NCBI GenBank assembly: GCA_028694915.1
Contig: JAQVJY010000002.1
Coordinates: 1-64,000, forward strand
Length of the DNA stretch: 64,000 bases
Reading direction: 5' to 3'
Origin: Paludibacteraceae bacterium
Lineage (GTDB): Bacteria; Bacteroidota; Bacteroidia; Bacteroidales; Paludibacteraceae
The notes under the pieces are model-generated. The model ran no database searches. It was not told where the DNA came from and was given only the letters and a program-made list of their open reading frames with translations. The position numbers and the translations under genes are program-made. Shown one piece after another: positions 32,985 through 40,484 of the stretch; position 1 is the stretch's first letter; each line of letters begins with the position of its first letter.

Positions 32985-34364
32985 TTATCGTCCTAAATTA
33001 AATGGTGGGTCTTCAGACTCAACACCAACAGGTTGCCATTGTTTATTAGGGTCCCCTCGTTTCCATTTTCTATCGGGATGATACACGGCGTAACTTCCTC
33101 GACGGCCATCTGATTCTTGTTTTTTGGTATACGGTATTTGGTAACCAATGCCCCATTCTACCATCTCCGCCTTTTGTAAATGTGTTTTTAAACTCGCATT
33201 CACAAACAAATTATCGTATACACGACAGCGTACACCTAAACGAAAATAGTTCCAACCATCCTCTTTTTCGATATCATAACTATACAACATTGGACGATTA
33301 TCACCATATACAGGATGTGGATCATGTGTGGCGTTACGAATTGGGTCGTACACATAAACTCCCCATTGTAAAACAGCAGTCACTCGACCAATAATAAACT
33401 CGTTGCTTAAACAAACGCCTGCGCGAAATTTATTAGCAATATCTTCAGTTGGAATAAAATAACGACCAAATTGAGTGTGTTCTTCATACTCTACTTTGTT
33501 TTCTCCTTCGCCACGGTTACCTTGTTGCACAAACACACCATCGTAAAACACGTCCACACCACCGCCCAACGCATACCAATCGGTTAAATTAGCAGACATA
33601 CTAGCATGAAAAGAACCTACGGGATACATTTTATTGTCCTTGTAGTACAATTCACGGGCACCACCCGAAGCAATTAAATTGATCGAAAAATCATAAGGAA
33701 AGCCGTCAATAGGCGGTCTAGGTTTTTTACAATGCGTACAACCTGGAAATAAATATTTGGCACCAACCATCACCTGCAACATATTGAGCCCTGCGTTCGG
33801 TTGCAACATACTACCATTACTCATGTGATTGTATCCAATATCTGACGTAATAGAAAATTGCTTGGCAACAGGAAATTCTAAATTGGCACCCGTAGTTAAA
33901 TACACATTTAAAACTGAACCTATGGCAGAATTAGCGGTTGAGGCATTGACTCCCGACAGTGTATCGCCATCATTCCATGTTTTGGTGAAGAAACTCAGAC
34001 CCGCACCAATTTTATAATTCAAATGGAAGTGTTCCGTTTTTACTACTGGCACTAATAAATATGGATATACGGCAAAAGCAGTTCCTAACAACTTTGGATT
34101 TCCCAAATTAATGCCTAAAAGTCCAACACCCACAGTGGGCATGCGCCAATAATGTTGCCAGTCGTAATTACCCATAGCCGGAAATTCTATAGCCATCTCG
34201 CCACCTAAAGCAGGTGGATGTGAAATAGAATCAAGGTTTTTGGTCATGGGTACAATATAACCTCCATAAATGGAACCTTTAATGGCAAAAGGAATTTTTT
34301 GAGCCATTGCTAATTGGCCGACACCGATAAATAATAAGGCAAAAAATATGGTTTTTTTCATCAT
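32985..34364 (-). CDS. acyloxyacyl hydrolase / PagL-like lipid A deacylase, outer membrane
   Basis: A 459-residue outer-membrane beta-barrel candidate with signal peptide MMKKTIFFALLFIGVGQLAMA. GYNHMSNGSMLQPNAG is the key motif: PagL-type deacylases use a His and Ser in an H-x-S-N-G context. FPGCTHCKKP lies between the first barrel (to about 230) and a second region (about 235-440) with many amphipathic strands, so the protein may hold two barrel-like parts, longer than PagL itself. It would remove an ester-linked acyl chain from lipid A. Divergent from gldF. Confidence 0.7.
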   Translation of the reverse strand: MMKKTIFFALLFIGVGQLAMAQKIPFAIKGSIYGGYIVPMTKNLDSISHPPALGGEMAIEFPAMGNYDWQHYWRMPTVGVGLLGINLGNPKLLGTAFAVYPYLLVPVVKTEHFHLNYKIGAGLSFFTKTWNDGDTLSGVNASTANSAIGSVLNVYLTTGANLEFPVAKQFSITSDIGYNHMSNGSMLQPNAGLNMLQVMVGAKYLFPGCTHCKKPRPPIDGFPYDFSINLIASGGARELYYKDNKMYPVGSFHASMSANLTDWYALGGGVDVFYDGVFVQQGNRGEGENKVEYEEHTQFGRYFIPTEDIANKFRAGVCLSNEFIIGRVTAVLQWGVYVYDPIRNATHDPHPVYGDNRPMLYSYDIEKEDGWNYFRLGVRCRVYDNLFVNASLKTHLQKAEMVEWGIGYQIPYTKKQESDGRRGSYAVYHPDRKWKRGDPNKQWQPVGVESEDPPFNLGR

Positions 34365-35200: not shown

Positions 35201-35962
35201 ATGAAACCATTAATTTTAATCACCAACGACGACGGCATATTATCTAAAGGCATATCGGAATTAATCGATATGGCTTGCACATTAGGCAATGTCGTAGTTA
35301 TGGCGCCCGATGGTCCGCGGTCAGCTCAATCGAATGCGCTCACTATGGCAGTGCCTGTATATTATCAGCTGGAACGTAAAGAACCAGGATTAGAAATCTA
35401 CAAATGTTCGGGTACGCCAACCGACTGTGTAAAATTGGCACTGAATAACGTGCTCGACCGCAAACCCGATTTGCTTTTTTCGGGCATTAATCATGGCTCT
35501 AATTCAGGCATCAACGTGATTTATTCTGGTACTATGGGAGCTGTATTCGAAGGCTGCGTGAACGAAATTCCTTCGGTAGGATTTTCCATTTGCGACCACG
35601 CCAAAGATGCCGACTTCTCGAAAGCTAAAGTTTATTTTGAACAAATAGCACGCAAAGTCATGATGGAAGGATTACCTGCTGGTGTCTGTTTAAATGTAAA
35701 CGCACCCATGGGCGAGATAAAAGGCGTTCGCTTGTCACAACAAACAAAAGGTTATTGGACAGAAGAATTCGAGAATCGTACTTCACCTCATGGTCAAGAT
35801 TATTATTGGCTCACAGGCTACTTTCTCAATCAAGAACCCGACAATGAGCAAACAGACGAATGGGCATTATCGCAAGGTTATGTTTCTATTGTTCCAACTA
35901 GAGTTGACATGACAGATTATGAGGCCATCAAACTACTAAAAAGTTATGAAGAAATTAGATAA
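35201..35962 (+). CDS. surE: 5'/3'-nucleotidase SurE
   Basis: Metal-dependent nucleoside monophosphate phosphatase. LITNDDGI (6-13), MAPDGPRSAQSN, SGTPTDCVKLAL, FSGINHGSNSG and YSGTMGAVFEGC are the SurE signatures. 253 residues, cytosolic. It overlaps the next small gene by 17 bases and is part of a gldF-surE-membrane protein-lpxB run. Confidence 0.95.
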   Translation: MKPLILITNDDGILSKGISELIDMACTLGNVVVMAPDGPRSAQSNALTMAVPVYYQLERKEPGLEIYKCSGTPTDCVKLALNNVLDRKPDLLFSGINHGSNSGINVIYSGTMGAVFEGCVNEIPSVGFSICDHAKDADFSKAKVYFEQIARKVMMEGLPAGVCLNVNAPMGEIKGVRLSQQTKGYWTEEFENRTSPHGQDYYWLTGYFLNQEPDNEQTDEWALSQGYVSIVPTRVDMTDYEAIKLLKSYEEIR

Positions 35963-36245: not shown

Positions 36246-37370
36246 ATGAAATATTTTTTGATAGCAGGCGAGGCTTCTGGCGATTTACATGCGTCAAACC
36301 TTATGGCAGAGTTAAAGAAACAAGACCATGAGGCTCAATTTTGTTTTCTGGGTGGCGATTTAATGCAGGCTCAAGGTGGGGAACTCATAAAACATTATCG
36401 TGATATGGCGTTTATGGGCTTCATCAATGTGCTCCTCAATTTACGAAAAGTACTAGCAAATCTAGAAGATTGCAAACGTGCTATTGGGCATTTCAAACCC
36501 GATGTCGTCATTTTGATTGATTATCCAAGTTTCAATTTACGCATTGCCAAATACGTCAAAAAACAATTTCAAACGCCTGTCTACTACTACATATCTCCTA
36601 AATTATGGGCATGGAAAAGTTATCGCATCAAATCCATCAAAAGATACATTGATAAAATGTATACAATTTTTCCTTTTGAAACGGAATTTTATGCGCAATA
36701 TAATTATCCCGTAACTTATGTAGGCAATCCCACAGTAGACTCCATTACACACTTCCACGCCAGCAAAAACAATCGAAATTTTAGAGAGGAAAATAAGTTG
36801 GACTCTCGTCCTATTGTGGCTTTATTAGCGGGCAGCCGCCGTCAAGAAATAAGTAAATGCTTACCAACTATGGTTGCCATGGCCGATAAATTTCCAACAT
36901 TTCAATTTCTAGTAGCAGCAGCACCAGGTATAGAACGAGATTATTACAACCAATTTTTAACATCCTCCGTAAAAATAGTGTCGGATAGTACATATGCCCT
37001 ATTGGACGAATCGTATGCCGCCATAGTCAATTCAGGCACTGCCACATTGGAAACTGGATTATTAAAAGTTCCACAAGTAGTTGTTTACCATGTTATTGGA
37101 GGTAGAATAGCATCCCTACTCAAAAAAGTTCTAATCAAAACACGTTACATTTCGCTAGTCAATTTGGTAGCAGAAACAGAAGTAGTAAAAGAATTAGTAG
37201 CACACGAATTCACATCTGAACAGGTTCACGCAGAACTAAATAGGATACTCACCGATTCTTCCTACTACGAAAAAATAAAAATGGGCTACAATAAGCTCGA
37301 ACAACGTCTAGGCGAATCAGGTACTGCACATAGAGCAGCCGTAGCCATTACCACAAGTTTAAGAAAATAA
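36246..37370 (+). CDS. lpxB: lipid-A-disaccharide synthase
   Basis: GT19 enzyme joining UDP-diacylglucosamine and lipid X. LIAGEASGDLHASNLM is the hallmark start; IDYPSFNLRIAKYVK, YYISPKLWAWKSYRIKSIKRY, FPFETEFY and VALLAGSRRQEISKCLPTM follow; NSGTATLETGLLKVPQVVVY is the nucleotide-sugar site. 374 residues. The partner enzyme lpxH is at 16.1-16.8 kb. Confidence 0.96.
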   Translation: MKYFLIAGEASGDLHASNLMAELKKQDHEAQFCFLGGDLMQAQGGELIKHYRDMAFMGFINVLLNLRKVLANLEDCKRAIGHFKPDVVILIDYPSFNLRIAKYVKKQFQTPVYYYISPKLWAWKSYRIKSIKRYIDKMYTIFPFETEFYAQYNYPVTYVGNPTVDSITHFHASKNNRNFREENKLDSRPIVALLAGSRRQEISKCLPTMVAMADKFPTFQFLVAAAPGIERDYYNQFLTSSVKIVSDSTYALLDESYAAIVNSGTATLETGLLKVPQVVVYHVIGGRIASLLKKVLIKTRYISLVNLVAETEVVKELVAHEFTSEQVHAELNRILTDSSYYEKIKMGYNKLEQRLGESGTAHRAAVAITTSLRK

Positions 37371-37409
37371 TTCAAATACGATGCAACGTTTACAACGTTC
37401 TGTGCATCA

Positions 37410-37967
37410 ATGAAAGAGACAGGAAATACATATGATCTGACTGAAAGTCAATTGATAGAAGGTTGCATTCGCGGTGATAGGCGTGCGCAACGTCGTCTTT
37501 ACGACTTATATGCCAAACGCATGGCAGCTCTGTGTATGCGCTATTGCGGCGATTATGAGGTAGCCTTGGATTTAATGCACGACGGTTTTATCAAATTGTT
37601 CACACACATTGAAAGTTATAGTGGACAAGGTTTTTTCGAAGCATGGATGCGTAAAATTTTTGTGAACACGGCACTCGAATATTTACGTAAAAACGATGCG
37701 CTAAGAGATAGTTCTGATATAGAAGAAGATATCCAGATTATGTCACCGGAGCCATCAGCCATTGATCAACTTTCGGCTAATGAGATTATGGCGTTAATTC
37801 AGGAATTACCTATGGGATTTAGAACTGTTTTTAATTTATATGTGATAGAAGGATACAGTCATGCAGAAATAGCGAACATATTACAAATTAACGAAAGTTC
37901 ATCACGCTCTCAATTCTCGCGTGCTAGATCTATTTTACAAACTAAAATTACAGATTTATATAAATGA
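37410..37967 (+). CDS. ECF-type RNA polymerase sigma factor
   Basis: A 185-residue sigma-70 family ECF factor. Region 2 covers about 25-95 (YDLYAKRMAALCMRYCGDYE, LMHDGFIKLFTHIESYSGQG, FEAWMRKIFVNTALEYLRKN), and region 4 about 120-180 (LPMGFRTVFNLYVIEGYSHA, EIANILQINESSSRSQFSRA). Its stop overlaps the start of the next gene by 4 bases (ATGA), the arrangement of a sigma factor with its cognate anti-sigma. Its regulon is unknown; envelope control is likely from the partner. Confidence 0.93.
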   Translation: MKETGNTYDLTESQLIEGCIRGDRRAQRRLYDLYAKRMAALCMRYCGDYEVALDLMHDGFIKLFTHIESYSGQGFFEAWMRKIFVNTALEYLRKNDALRDSSDIEEDIQIMSPEPSAIDQLSANEIMALIQELPMGFRTVFNLYVIEGYSHAEIANILQINESSSRSQFSRARSILQTKITDLYK

Positions 37968-39316
37968 CCGATCACGAATTAAAACGACAATTACAGGAAA
38001 AGCTTAAATTCCACGAATTAGATTTACCTGCCAATGATTGGAACGCATTTGAAAAGCGTTTACCAGTCGCTCCGCGTCGTATTGCAGTAAGATGGAGTTG
38101 GTCAGTAGCCGTTGGTGTTGCAGCTGTAGCACTAGTTGCCATACTATTATACCAACAACCTTCCAGCTCATTACCAACTTCGCCAGCATTTACCAAATCG
38201 GAACAAGCAACAACGGAAAATACTAATGGTGAACCTGTTAAAAACATAAACACGTCTACAAATTTATTAAGCCAAGTTGGTAAAACAGAAGAATCAGCGA
38301 AAGACAACAAAAAAGTAGATACTAAAAAGGAACAAAAAAAAGCTGATAAACATACGAAATCGAAACGTAAAACTACCGATGAAGATGACAATGCGAACGA
38401 CACCAAAGACACTGAATCAATAGAAACAGCACCAAAAGAAGAAGAAAACCAAAAACCATCGTTGCACGAGCAAGAAGACGATGGTGCTGAGTATATTGTG
38501 CAATTGAATAATAAAAGTAAGGAGAATCAATCTCTTGCCCAGACCAATTCAGATAATAAACCAAGTTTATCTATTCAAGAAGCAGAAGTATTGATGAAAG
38601 AACAAGATAAACAACAGATGGCGGCACTCGAAGAAAAAGGACAAAAATCGTCTAATCAATCAGGAACTGAAAATTGGAATGTTGGATTATTAGCTTCGAT
38701 AACACCCGAAATTTTAACCATGAGTGATGTGGCACCAACCGTTTTGATGGACAACTCATTTTCGTACCGAAGTATGAACAGAGTAAATGCAAAACACGAT
38801 TTACCAATTATGGTAGGCGCTTCCGTTGGAATTCCTATAGCCAAAGGTTTTTCTGTGCATACAGGAATTAATTATGCGTACATACACTCAATAATTACGA
38901 AAGAAAACGCCCTGACAGGCGATTACGCGATTGACAATCAAAAACTACATTACTTAGGAATTCCGGTGTTGTTATCATATAAAGTGTTCGATTACAACAT
39001 CGTACAATGTTACGTGTCGGGTGGTGGCATGGCGGAAAAAGGGTTGGTTCAAGATGTGCACACCAACACATTCGACCAAACAGATAACCTGCTAAACAGC
39101 GACTCGCAACAAACCGCTATTAAAGGATTACAGTTTTCATTAATCGCCAACGTTGGACTCGGTGTCCAGCTTTATAAAGGATTAAATCTATTCTTTGAGC
39201 CTGGATTTACTTGGTATATCGCCAACAACTCCTCACCTCAACCTGAAAATATACGTACGGAGCATCCGTATAATTTAAGTTTAACAGCAGGTTTACGTTA
39301 TAATTTAAACAAATAA
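37964..39316 (+). CDS. anti-sigma factor predicted to span both membranes (Dma-like)
   Basis: A 450-residue protein in four parts. Residues 1-43 are cytosolic with an anti-sigma-like DLPANDWNAFEKRLP; about 44-64 (WSWSVAVGVAAVALVAILLY) is one inner-membrane span; about 65-235 is a charged, low-complexity Lys/Glu/Asp linker able to cross the periplasm; about 236-450 is an outer-membrane beta-barrel domain (GLLASITPEI, VGASVGIPIAKGFSVHTGIN, GLRYNLNK end). This matches dual-membrane-spanning anti-sigma factors described in Bacteroides (Dma1 with sigma factor Das1). It overlaps the sigma gene by 4 bases. Confidence 0.82.
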   Translation: MTDHELKRQLQEKLKFHELDLPANDWNAFEKRLPVAPRRIAVRWSWSVAVGVAAVALVAILLYQQPSSSLPTSPAFTKSEQATTENTNGEPVKNINTSTNLLSQVGKTEESAKDNKKVDTKKEQKKADKHTKSKRKTTDEDDNANDTKDTESIETAPKEEENQKPSLHEQEDDGAEYIVQLNNKSKENQSLAQTNSDNKPSLSIQEAEVLMKEQDKQQMAALEEKGQKSSNQSGTENWNVGLLASITPEILTMSDVAPTVLMDNSFSYRSMNRVNAKHDLPIMVGASVGIPIAKGFSVHTGINYAYIHSIITKENALTGDYAIDNQKLHYLGIPVLLSYKVFDYNIVQCYVSGGGMAEKGLVQDVHTNTFDQTDNLLNSDSQQTAIKGLQFSLIANVGLGVQLYKGLNLFFEPGFTWYIANNSSPQPENIRTEHPYNLSLTAGLRYNLNK

Positions 39317-39440: not shown

Positions 39441-40484
39441 ATGAAAAAAATCTTTAGTTTAGTGGCAGGTGTGTCACTTTTAATTTTTGCGGCTTCGTGC
39501 AATCCCAAAGAACCTAATACAGATCTTATCCCTACAGCTCCAGATAATTCGTACATAATTTTTGATGCTGTCAATGCCACTAACTATGGCACAGAATATG
39601 GTGATGGTCAAAGTTATAATTATTCATTACAATTTTCTACTGATTATAATTACGAAACTGATGATGAAGGAAATACCACTTATTTGACTGATGGTATAGA
39701 TTTATTTGTTGATTTGTATTTTTCTGAAGACAAAATTTCTGCAGGGACCTATGTTGTGGACACAACAGGCATAGCAGGTACAGTTGGTGTTGAATATTCG
39801 GGTGCTTATAAATATACCGCAAATTCTTCTGAAGAGCAAGAAGTTATTTTTACTACTGGAACTGTGAAAATTGAAGTGTCAGGAAACCGCTATACATATA
39901 CTATCAACATGATAACTGCTGATGGCGACACATTAAAAGGCTTTTATACTGGTGACATGTATATTGGGGGAGAAAGTGTAACGCCAACAATGCTTTCAGT
40001 TGAGGCCCCAAGTGATTCTATTTCTGCCATTAATTATGGGGACTCCTATGATATTGGCTCAGATGAAGTTGTATTACAAATCTGGACCGACAAGGCCGCT
40101 GTCGCATTTGACATAAATCTTGAAAATGGGGCAACAGAAGTACCAGTTGGAACTTATAGCGTAGATACTACTTATGCAATAGGCACTTTATCTGAAGGTT
40201 ATAGTTTTGATTTTTTTGGATATACCTTTCCAACAGGAACATATGCTCAAACTACCGACTCTTATTTCTATATAACATCTGGACAATTAGTAATAACTAA
40301 GGCGGATAATATTTACACATTAGTGGCAAATTTAAAAAATACTTATGGAAGCACCATTAACGCCACATACACTGGTGTTATAAAACTTGAAACTGCAGAA
40401 GCCGCTCCCGAAGCAATGCTTGCGAAAAAAAATGCAAGAAGCGCTAAAAAAGCACCACACAAACATATTACAACAAGACGCTAA
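39441..40484 (+). CDS. lipoprotein with duplicated beta-rich domain
   Basis: A 347-residue lipoprotein: MKKIFSLVAGVSLLIFAASC carries a lipobox with Cys20. Two copies of a roughly 140-residue module follow, each with a start (FDAVNATNYGTEYGDG or SDSISAINYGDSYD), a middle (GTYVVDTTGIAGT or GTYSVDTTYAIGT) and an end (YTYTINMITADGDTLKGFYTG or YTLVANLKNTYGSTINATYTG). Basic C-terminal tail (KKNARSAKKAPHKHITTRR). I do not recognise a named family; similar repeat lipoproteins are common in Bacteroidales outer membranes. Confidence 0.78.
   Translation: MKKIFSLVAGVSLLIFAASCNPKEPNTDLIPTAPDNSYIIFDAVNATNYGTEYGDGQSYNYSLQFSTDYNYETDDEGNTTYLTDGIDLFVDLYFSEDKISAGTYVVDTTGIAGTVGVEYSGAYKYTANSSEEQEVIFTTGTVKIEVSGNRYTYTINMITADGDTLKGFYTGDMYIGGESVTPTMLSVEAPSDSISAINYGDSYDIGSDEVVLQIWTDKAAVAFDINLENGATEVPVGTYSVDTTYAIGTLSEGYSFDFFGYTFPTGTYAQTTDSYFYITSGQLVITKADNIYTLVANLKNTYGSTINATYTGVIKLETAEAAPEAMLAKKNARSAKKAPHKHITTRR

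Follow-up and report, generated by a model that had tools for sequence, protein, structure and literature searches.

The das-dma gene pair probably acts as an outer-membrane stress switch that matches the supply of lipid A and of surface lipoproteins to the state of the outer membrane. The pair lies in a window of 64,000 nucleotides (the whole stretch of DNA analysed) on a 249-kb contig of a Paludibacteraceae genome (2.09 Mb, 62 contigs), and consists of a gene for an ECF sigma factor (das) followed by a gene for an anti-sigma factor (dma) that is predicted to reach across both membranes (Table 1). By domain content and predicted structure it is a Das/Dma-type pair with the EcfO/Reo architecture, known from Bacteroides thetaiotaomicron and Phocaeicola vulgatus. 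Outer-membrane damage sensing is poorly known in Bacteroidota, for which das-dma offers a minimal case, with one pair and few ECF sigmas, and a short, testable promoter list through which lipid A synthesis and NigD lipoproteins would be tied to a sensor that extends to the outer membrane.

Table 1. Features of the das-dma locus and predicted Das-dependent sites (positions in the 64,000-nucleotide window)
Feature	Position	Strand	Basis
surE-like gene in the conserved run	35201..35962	+	synteny
lpxB, lipid-A-disaccharide synthase, directly upstream of das	36246..37370	+	Pfam LpxB 5.5e-83
Predicted Das-dependent promoter TGCAAC-N16-GCATC; strict-pattern site of das	37382..37408	+	motif enrichment; 39-bp lpxB-das gap; pattern TGCARCNTTTN13CRTC
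das, ECF sigma factor	37410..37967	+	Pfam, alignments, nearest solved structures
dma, 450-aa anti-sigma factor predicted across both membranes	37964..39316	+	Pfam OMP_b-brl_2, AlphaFold, family alignment
dma residues 1-39, cytosolic anti-sigma N-domain	37964..38080	+	AlphaFold helices; profile match to barrel-less anti-sigmas
dma residues 44-63, inner-membrane helix, basic residues before (N-in)	38093..38152	+	hydropathy, AlphaFold
dma residues 64-272, charged disordered periplasmic tether	38153..38779	+	low pLDDT, domain-wise comparison
dma residues 273-450, 8-strand outer-membrane barrel (predicted)	38780..39313	+	AlphaFold pLDDT mostly >90; structure comparison
Strict-pattern site, 68 bp upstream of lpxD			Pfam LpxD 2.8e-21
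Strict-pattern site, 37 bp upstream of NigD-like lipoprotein gene			NigD_C 5e-22
Strict-pattern site, 59 bp upstream of small lipoprotein gene			

The das product (185 aa) matches Pfam Sigma70_r2 (1.7e-14) and r4_2 (4.2e-12), which bears out the original prediction of an ECF sigma factor at 37410; its closest solved structures are the ECF factors SigH and RpoE, and it is 43-57% identical to other sigmas whose partners are Dma-like proteins. The reading frames of das and dma overlap by 4 bases (ATGA). Besides the main sigma factor, the genome encodes three ECF-like sigmas, and it has one das-dma pair.

For Dma, the original prediction had placed a cytosolic anti-sigma region, one inner-membrane span, a linker and a barrel on a single polypeptide, and domain search, AlphaFold and the relatives agree with this plan. 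The AlphaFold model, built on an alignment of 32 relatives, has two helices in the N-domain (residues 3-15 and 23-32), with the motif KL..hE.dlP...W..hE..L, followed by the only hydrophobic span of the protein (hydropathy 40-67, AlphaFold helix 44-63). The N-domain is short, and scans of Pfam and NCBIfam gave no RseA match for the anti-sigma. The linker is charged, as expected (35% of the 169 residues in 68-236), and disordered, yet its length, put at 170 residues, is nearer 205, because AlphaFold pLDDT is below 50 almost throughout residues 64-270. Structure prediction, which had been proposed as a check on residues 236-450, does return an 8-strand barrel there, with a later start at about residue 273. 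Pfam OMP_b-brl_2 matches residues 264-417 (E=2e-10), and the protein ends in a β-signal-like T-A-G-L-R-Y-N-L. The barrel resembles those of OmpA, OprF and OmpW, aligning with OprF (VIA; Z 12.3, 119 residues aligned, 2.8 Å) and OmpA (Z 11.8, 149 residues, 3.5 Å), as well as with NspA and OmpW, and a sequence search of the Dma profile against solved structures gave only coiled or low-complexity chance matches. The outer-membrane location of the barrel is a prediction, as a barrel fold alone is not proof of it.

Matches are present in 48 of 149 genomes of the order. Each of the 29 further loci read, all in other genomes of the order, has a sigma gene just upstream of the barrel protein and on the same strand, so the pairing goes beyond chance; the Dma-type proteins of these loci have 385-474 aa, and exactly one membrane span is found at the same place in all 30 (window included). 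A comparison of two species of the genus gives 87.5% identity for das and 69% for dma, the latter divided into 81% for the barrel, 77% for the N-domain, 64% for the helix and 52% for the linker (68-236); by this comparison the working ends of Dma are conserved and the tether drifts, as its fastest-changing part. One Bacteroidales genome carries two facing sigma-Dma pairs (L042:5959-9765), and in another locus (L054:6539-7851) the Dma frame is split into an N-terminal ORF of 214 aa and a barrel ORF of 222 aa that overlap by one base.

Scanning the named genomes with nothing but the Dma sequence yielded no relatives, and a scan with the sigma alignment gathered 80 named loci. We sorted these loci, found by sigma similarity, together with the window by partner type (76 classified, 5 unclassified) and obtained 1) 45 loci, including the window, with a fused barrel, among which the distant L083, L101, L108, L110 and L112 are weakly supported, 2) 8 loci, all from Cyclobacteriaceae and kin and forming one supported clade, with a short anti-sigma and a separate downstream barrel gene, 3) 9 loci with a type IX sorting domain at the end of the anti-sigma (TIGR04131 above cut-off in 4 and weaker in 5; CHU_C above cut-off in all three scanned with Pfam), and 4) 14 loci with a plain anti-sigma that has neither barrel nor sorting domain. 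On the sigma tree the five partner labels require 11 changes, against 33.7 when shuffled. The N-domain of the short, barrel-less anti-sigmas matches that of Dma (profile comparison, probability 97.4%, E=1.1e-11). The separate Cyclobacteriaceae barrel is still predicted to fold as a barrel (NspA Z 14.7); since no profile similarity to the Dma barrel was detected, we do not claim a 'split Dma' arisen by homologous fission. With a shared N-domain and a separate barrel of no detected kinship, different envelope ends would have been attached to, or set next to, a single kind of anti-sigma. As far as the sequences tell, then, the same sigma and anti-sigma N-domain bears four envelope ends (barrel fused, barrel separate, type IX sorting, none), which is new here.

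It is possible, at slightly less than even chances, that one anti-sigma family with the same sigma clade and promoter code has several interchangeable outer ends, of which the barrel is one, the outer membrane being read by different devices. If so, some lineages would sense barrel insertion, and others passage through, or docking to, the type IX machinery. With its exchanged outer ends, the phylum also supplies natural variants for testing whether signalling needs an unbroken chain.

The type IX-ending anti-sigmas (L062, L074, L075, L076, L080, L082, L084, L095 and L104) are encoded by the gene after the sigma and have a Dma-like N-domain and a membrane helix, their sorting domain being of type B; some carry a PKD domain, and in L075 the gene that follows encodes a SprB-repeat protein of 1201 aa that shares this sorting domain. 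At the separate-barrel loci (L056, L077, L093, L102, L103, L106, L107 and L114) the barrel is encoded by the second gene after the sigma and has a conserved N-terminal α-β module, DSVVVEhGK..KIVI.V..K.DhE.LK..DINQhI.EL, which may form a contact pair with the conserved C-terminal helix of the adjoining short anti-sigma. Chitinophagaceae-type loci (L057, L066, L070, L072, L078, L096 and L097) have a plain anti-sigma followed by a gene of 142-146 aa, and the small genes of L057 and L097 are 4HBT thioesterases.

The predicted promoter before das is the sole match of its kind within the window. GCAAC-N17-CATC occurs in 40 regions upstream of das genes, against 5-8 for the top pair in shuffles, and a relaxed form of the motif precedes das in 41 of the 80 named loci, compared with 1.8 expected from random pieces. 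By partner type, 8 of 8 separate-barrel loci have it, as do 7 of 9 type IX, 25 of 44 fused and 0 of 14 plain loci, the fused count being kept down in part by uncertain start codons and by differences in the distant sigmas. The promoter is predicted to be autoregulatory and common to the relatives, a finding that is also new here. The -10 element of this promoter stops one base short of the annotated ATG (37410), and in alignments the Met of several relatives falls at das codon 10 (CTG, 37437), which together point to a later translation start; the Das-driven transcript probably begins within the annotated das ORF and is translated from a downstream start, and the annotated ATG could be used by transcripts reading through from lpxB. 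A candidate hairpin between lpxB and das was rejected, its arms being the -35 and -10 of the promoter.

Targets were sought genome-wide with patterns. The strict TGCARCNTTTN13CRTC has four matches in the whole 2.09-Mb genome, all intergenic (reversed control, 2), and they precede das, lpxD, the only NigD-like gene of the genome and a small lipoprotein gene, a set of predicted sites that is likewise new. A loose pattern with two mismatches was dropped as evidence on its own, because its reversed control gave as many matches as the real search in the window genome (G000), and exact TGCAAC-N15-17-GCATC matches inside coding sequence (in G000, one opposite mutL and one in C2) were rejected as chance. 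The motif stands before nigD in five genomes (G000, G149, G160, G150 and G161), with the 37-bp distance kept in the first three, and before the small lipoprotein in two. Of the 13 family genomes with Dma, 10 have NigD_C genes, against 1 of the 14 without (p=3.4e-4, a value that is too small because the genomes are related and so not independent); NigD occurs without a clear Dma in one genome (G041), and in another (G155) dma is followed at once by a NigD gene on the same strand. At one further locus, a VWA/YfbK-type lipoprotein gene (L152:22-1473, minus strand) has an exact TGCAAC-N16-GCATC 27 bp upstream, a weaker match and a possible further Das target.

The link to lipid A comes from gene order and from lpxD. 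The order lpxB-das-dma recurs within the genus and in another five genera of the family, and is found in 0 of the 80 named loci outside the family. Among the 6 genomes with an lpxB-linked das, 4 have the motif within 250 bp of lpxD, and none of the 19 others does (p=0.0012, likewise too small for related genomes, and with the grouping set after the first matches); the lpxB-linked G166 and G168 have no lpxD motif, and in G149 an lpxD-type site follows the same upstream HD-domain gene at a contig end. The lpxD site and the place of das-dma right behind lpxB together indicate that lipid A synthesis may be controlled, and suggest that in the lpxB-linked clade the switch is wired to this pathway through lpxB by linkage and through lpxD by promoter.

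Control of outer-membrane vesiculation in Bacteroides is ascribed to Das1/Dma1 pairs, and the likeness to these that had been noted for the window pair is upheld by domain search, structure prediction and relatives. A Dma is defined by an N-terminal sigma-binding domain, a membrane helix, a disordered tether and a C-terminal barrel, with an ECF21 sigma alongside (PMC13088901), and Das1/Dma1 and Das2/Dma2 of B. thetaiotaomicron likewise comprise an ECF sigma and then an anti-sigma with the same four parts. EcfO/Reo of Bacteroides fragilis and P. vulgatus has the same domain plan and is described as spanning all compartments (PMC9308784, PMC13114119). In P. vulgatus the reported trigger is envelope stress caused by toxins acting on the outer membrane (PMC9308784); BcpT, a toxin with the lipid A-core as its receptor, induces the sigma gene 33-fold, and three NigD genes go up in the regulon (PMC9308784, PMC13114119). 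The LPS effect described there is a longer O-antigen, and lipid A genes are not named in the available text. By analogy, the trigger of das-dma would narrow to envelope stress of this kind. Das1 raises nigD1 in B. thetaiotaomicron (PMC13088901), and the NigD gene of the window genome is a predicted target of Das. The window pair differs from the B. thetaiotaomicron pairs in that it is single, stands behind lpxB and has a predicted site before lpxD.

In Escherichia coli, envelope stress frees the ECF factor σE from RseA and raises lipid A genes (the lpxD operon), the signal being unfolded porins and LPS acting through DegS and RseB on a single-pass anti-sigma without a barrel. The logic of lpxD-lpxB control is comparable, and only the window pair has a barrel on the anti-sigma. 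In FecI/FecR/FecA, an outer-membrane barrel likewise controls an ECF sigma, but through a separate TonB-dependent transducer and FecR, neither of which is found at the window locus; a Pfam scan of Dma gave no FecR match, and its barrel has about 178 aa and 8 strands.

From the parts, predicted fold, pairing, motif and target positions we infer binding, signal, release and expression as follows. At rest, Das would be held at the inner membrane by the N-terminal helices of Dma, whose single chain would cross the periplasm and end in a barrel within the outer membrane, so that the state of the outer membrane could reach the sigma directly through one uncut chain. A disturbed outer membrane, presumably with damaged lipid A/LPS or failed barrel assembly, would alter the barrel or the tether and free Das, probably via proteolysis of Dma. 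Freed Das would then transcribe TGCAAC-N16-GCATC promoters, namely those of its own operon, the single nigD-like gene, the small lipoprotein gene and lpxD. Given the further position of das-dma behind lpxB, the most likely role of the loop is to adjust lipid A supply and surface lipoproteins to the state of the outer membrane.

Dma might instead be cut soon after synthesis or on export, so that the outer membrane would hold a free barrel and the N-terminal half would work like any single-pass anti-sigma, with barrel and sigma coupled only by a protease cascade or not at all. The 8 loci with a short single-pass anti-sigma and a separate barrel gene alongside imply that not every lineage needs the covalent link, and the S-P-A triplet after the membrane helix of the window Dma and the fast evolution of the linker would fit such a cut as well; we nevertheless regard it as unlikely, as a signal-peptidase-like A-x-A after the helix occurs in only 4 of 30 proteins, the one-chain form accounts for 45 of the 76 classified loci, and the linker stays long.

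Another regulator might own TGCAAC-N16-GCATC, with the lpxD and nigD sites coincidental, as the two lpxB-linked relatives without an lpxD site and the roughly equal yield of looser patterns in reversed controls would allow. This seems more improbable still, because the motif tracks the sigma clade (within one clade, loci of the separate-barrel, type IX and fused kinds have it, and the plain type lacks it), and because the nigD site is held at its distance in three genomes. Least probable, with only a slight chance, is a switch that senses a glycan or other surface ligand and mainly tunes polysaccharide use, as proposed for Dma2, which alters polysaccharide utilisation loci in B. thetaiotaomicron (PMC13088901): none of the four strong motif matches in this genome precedes polysaccharide-use genes, and no such genes adjoin das-dma in the window.

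By synteny, the das-dma pair belongs to a conserved run of genes for an ABC permease, a protein that we take from family knowledge to be SurE-like, a 96-aa protein, LpxB, Das and Dma. A gene with a PagL-like lipid A deacylase domain (32985-34364, minus strand; 2.2e-13) diverges from this run, and in L144 two related genes flank the run. On the other side, directly after dma, stands a lipoprotein gene of an unknown family (39441-40484, plus strand). It was rejected as a member of the das-dma operon, since an inverted repeat and a TAnnTTTG-type promoter of its own intervene, and its product is 44% identical between two species of the genus, compared with 84-90% for its neighbours.
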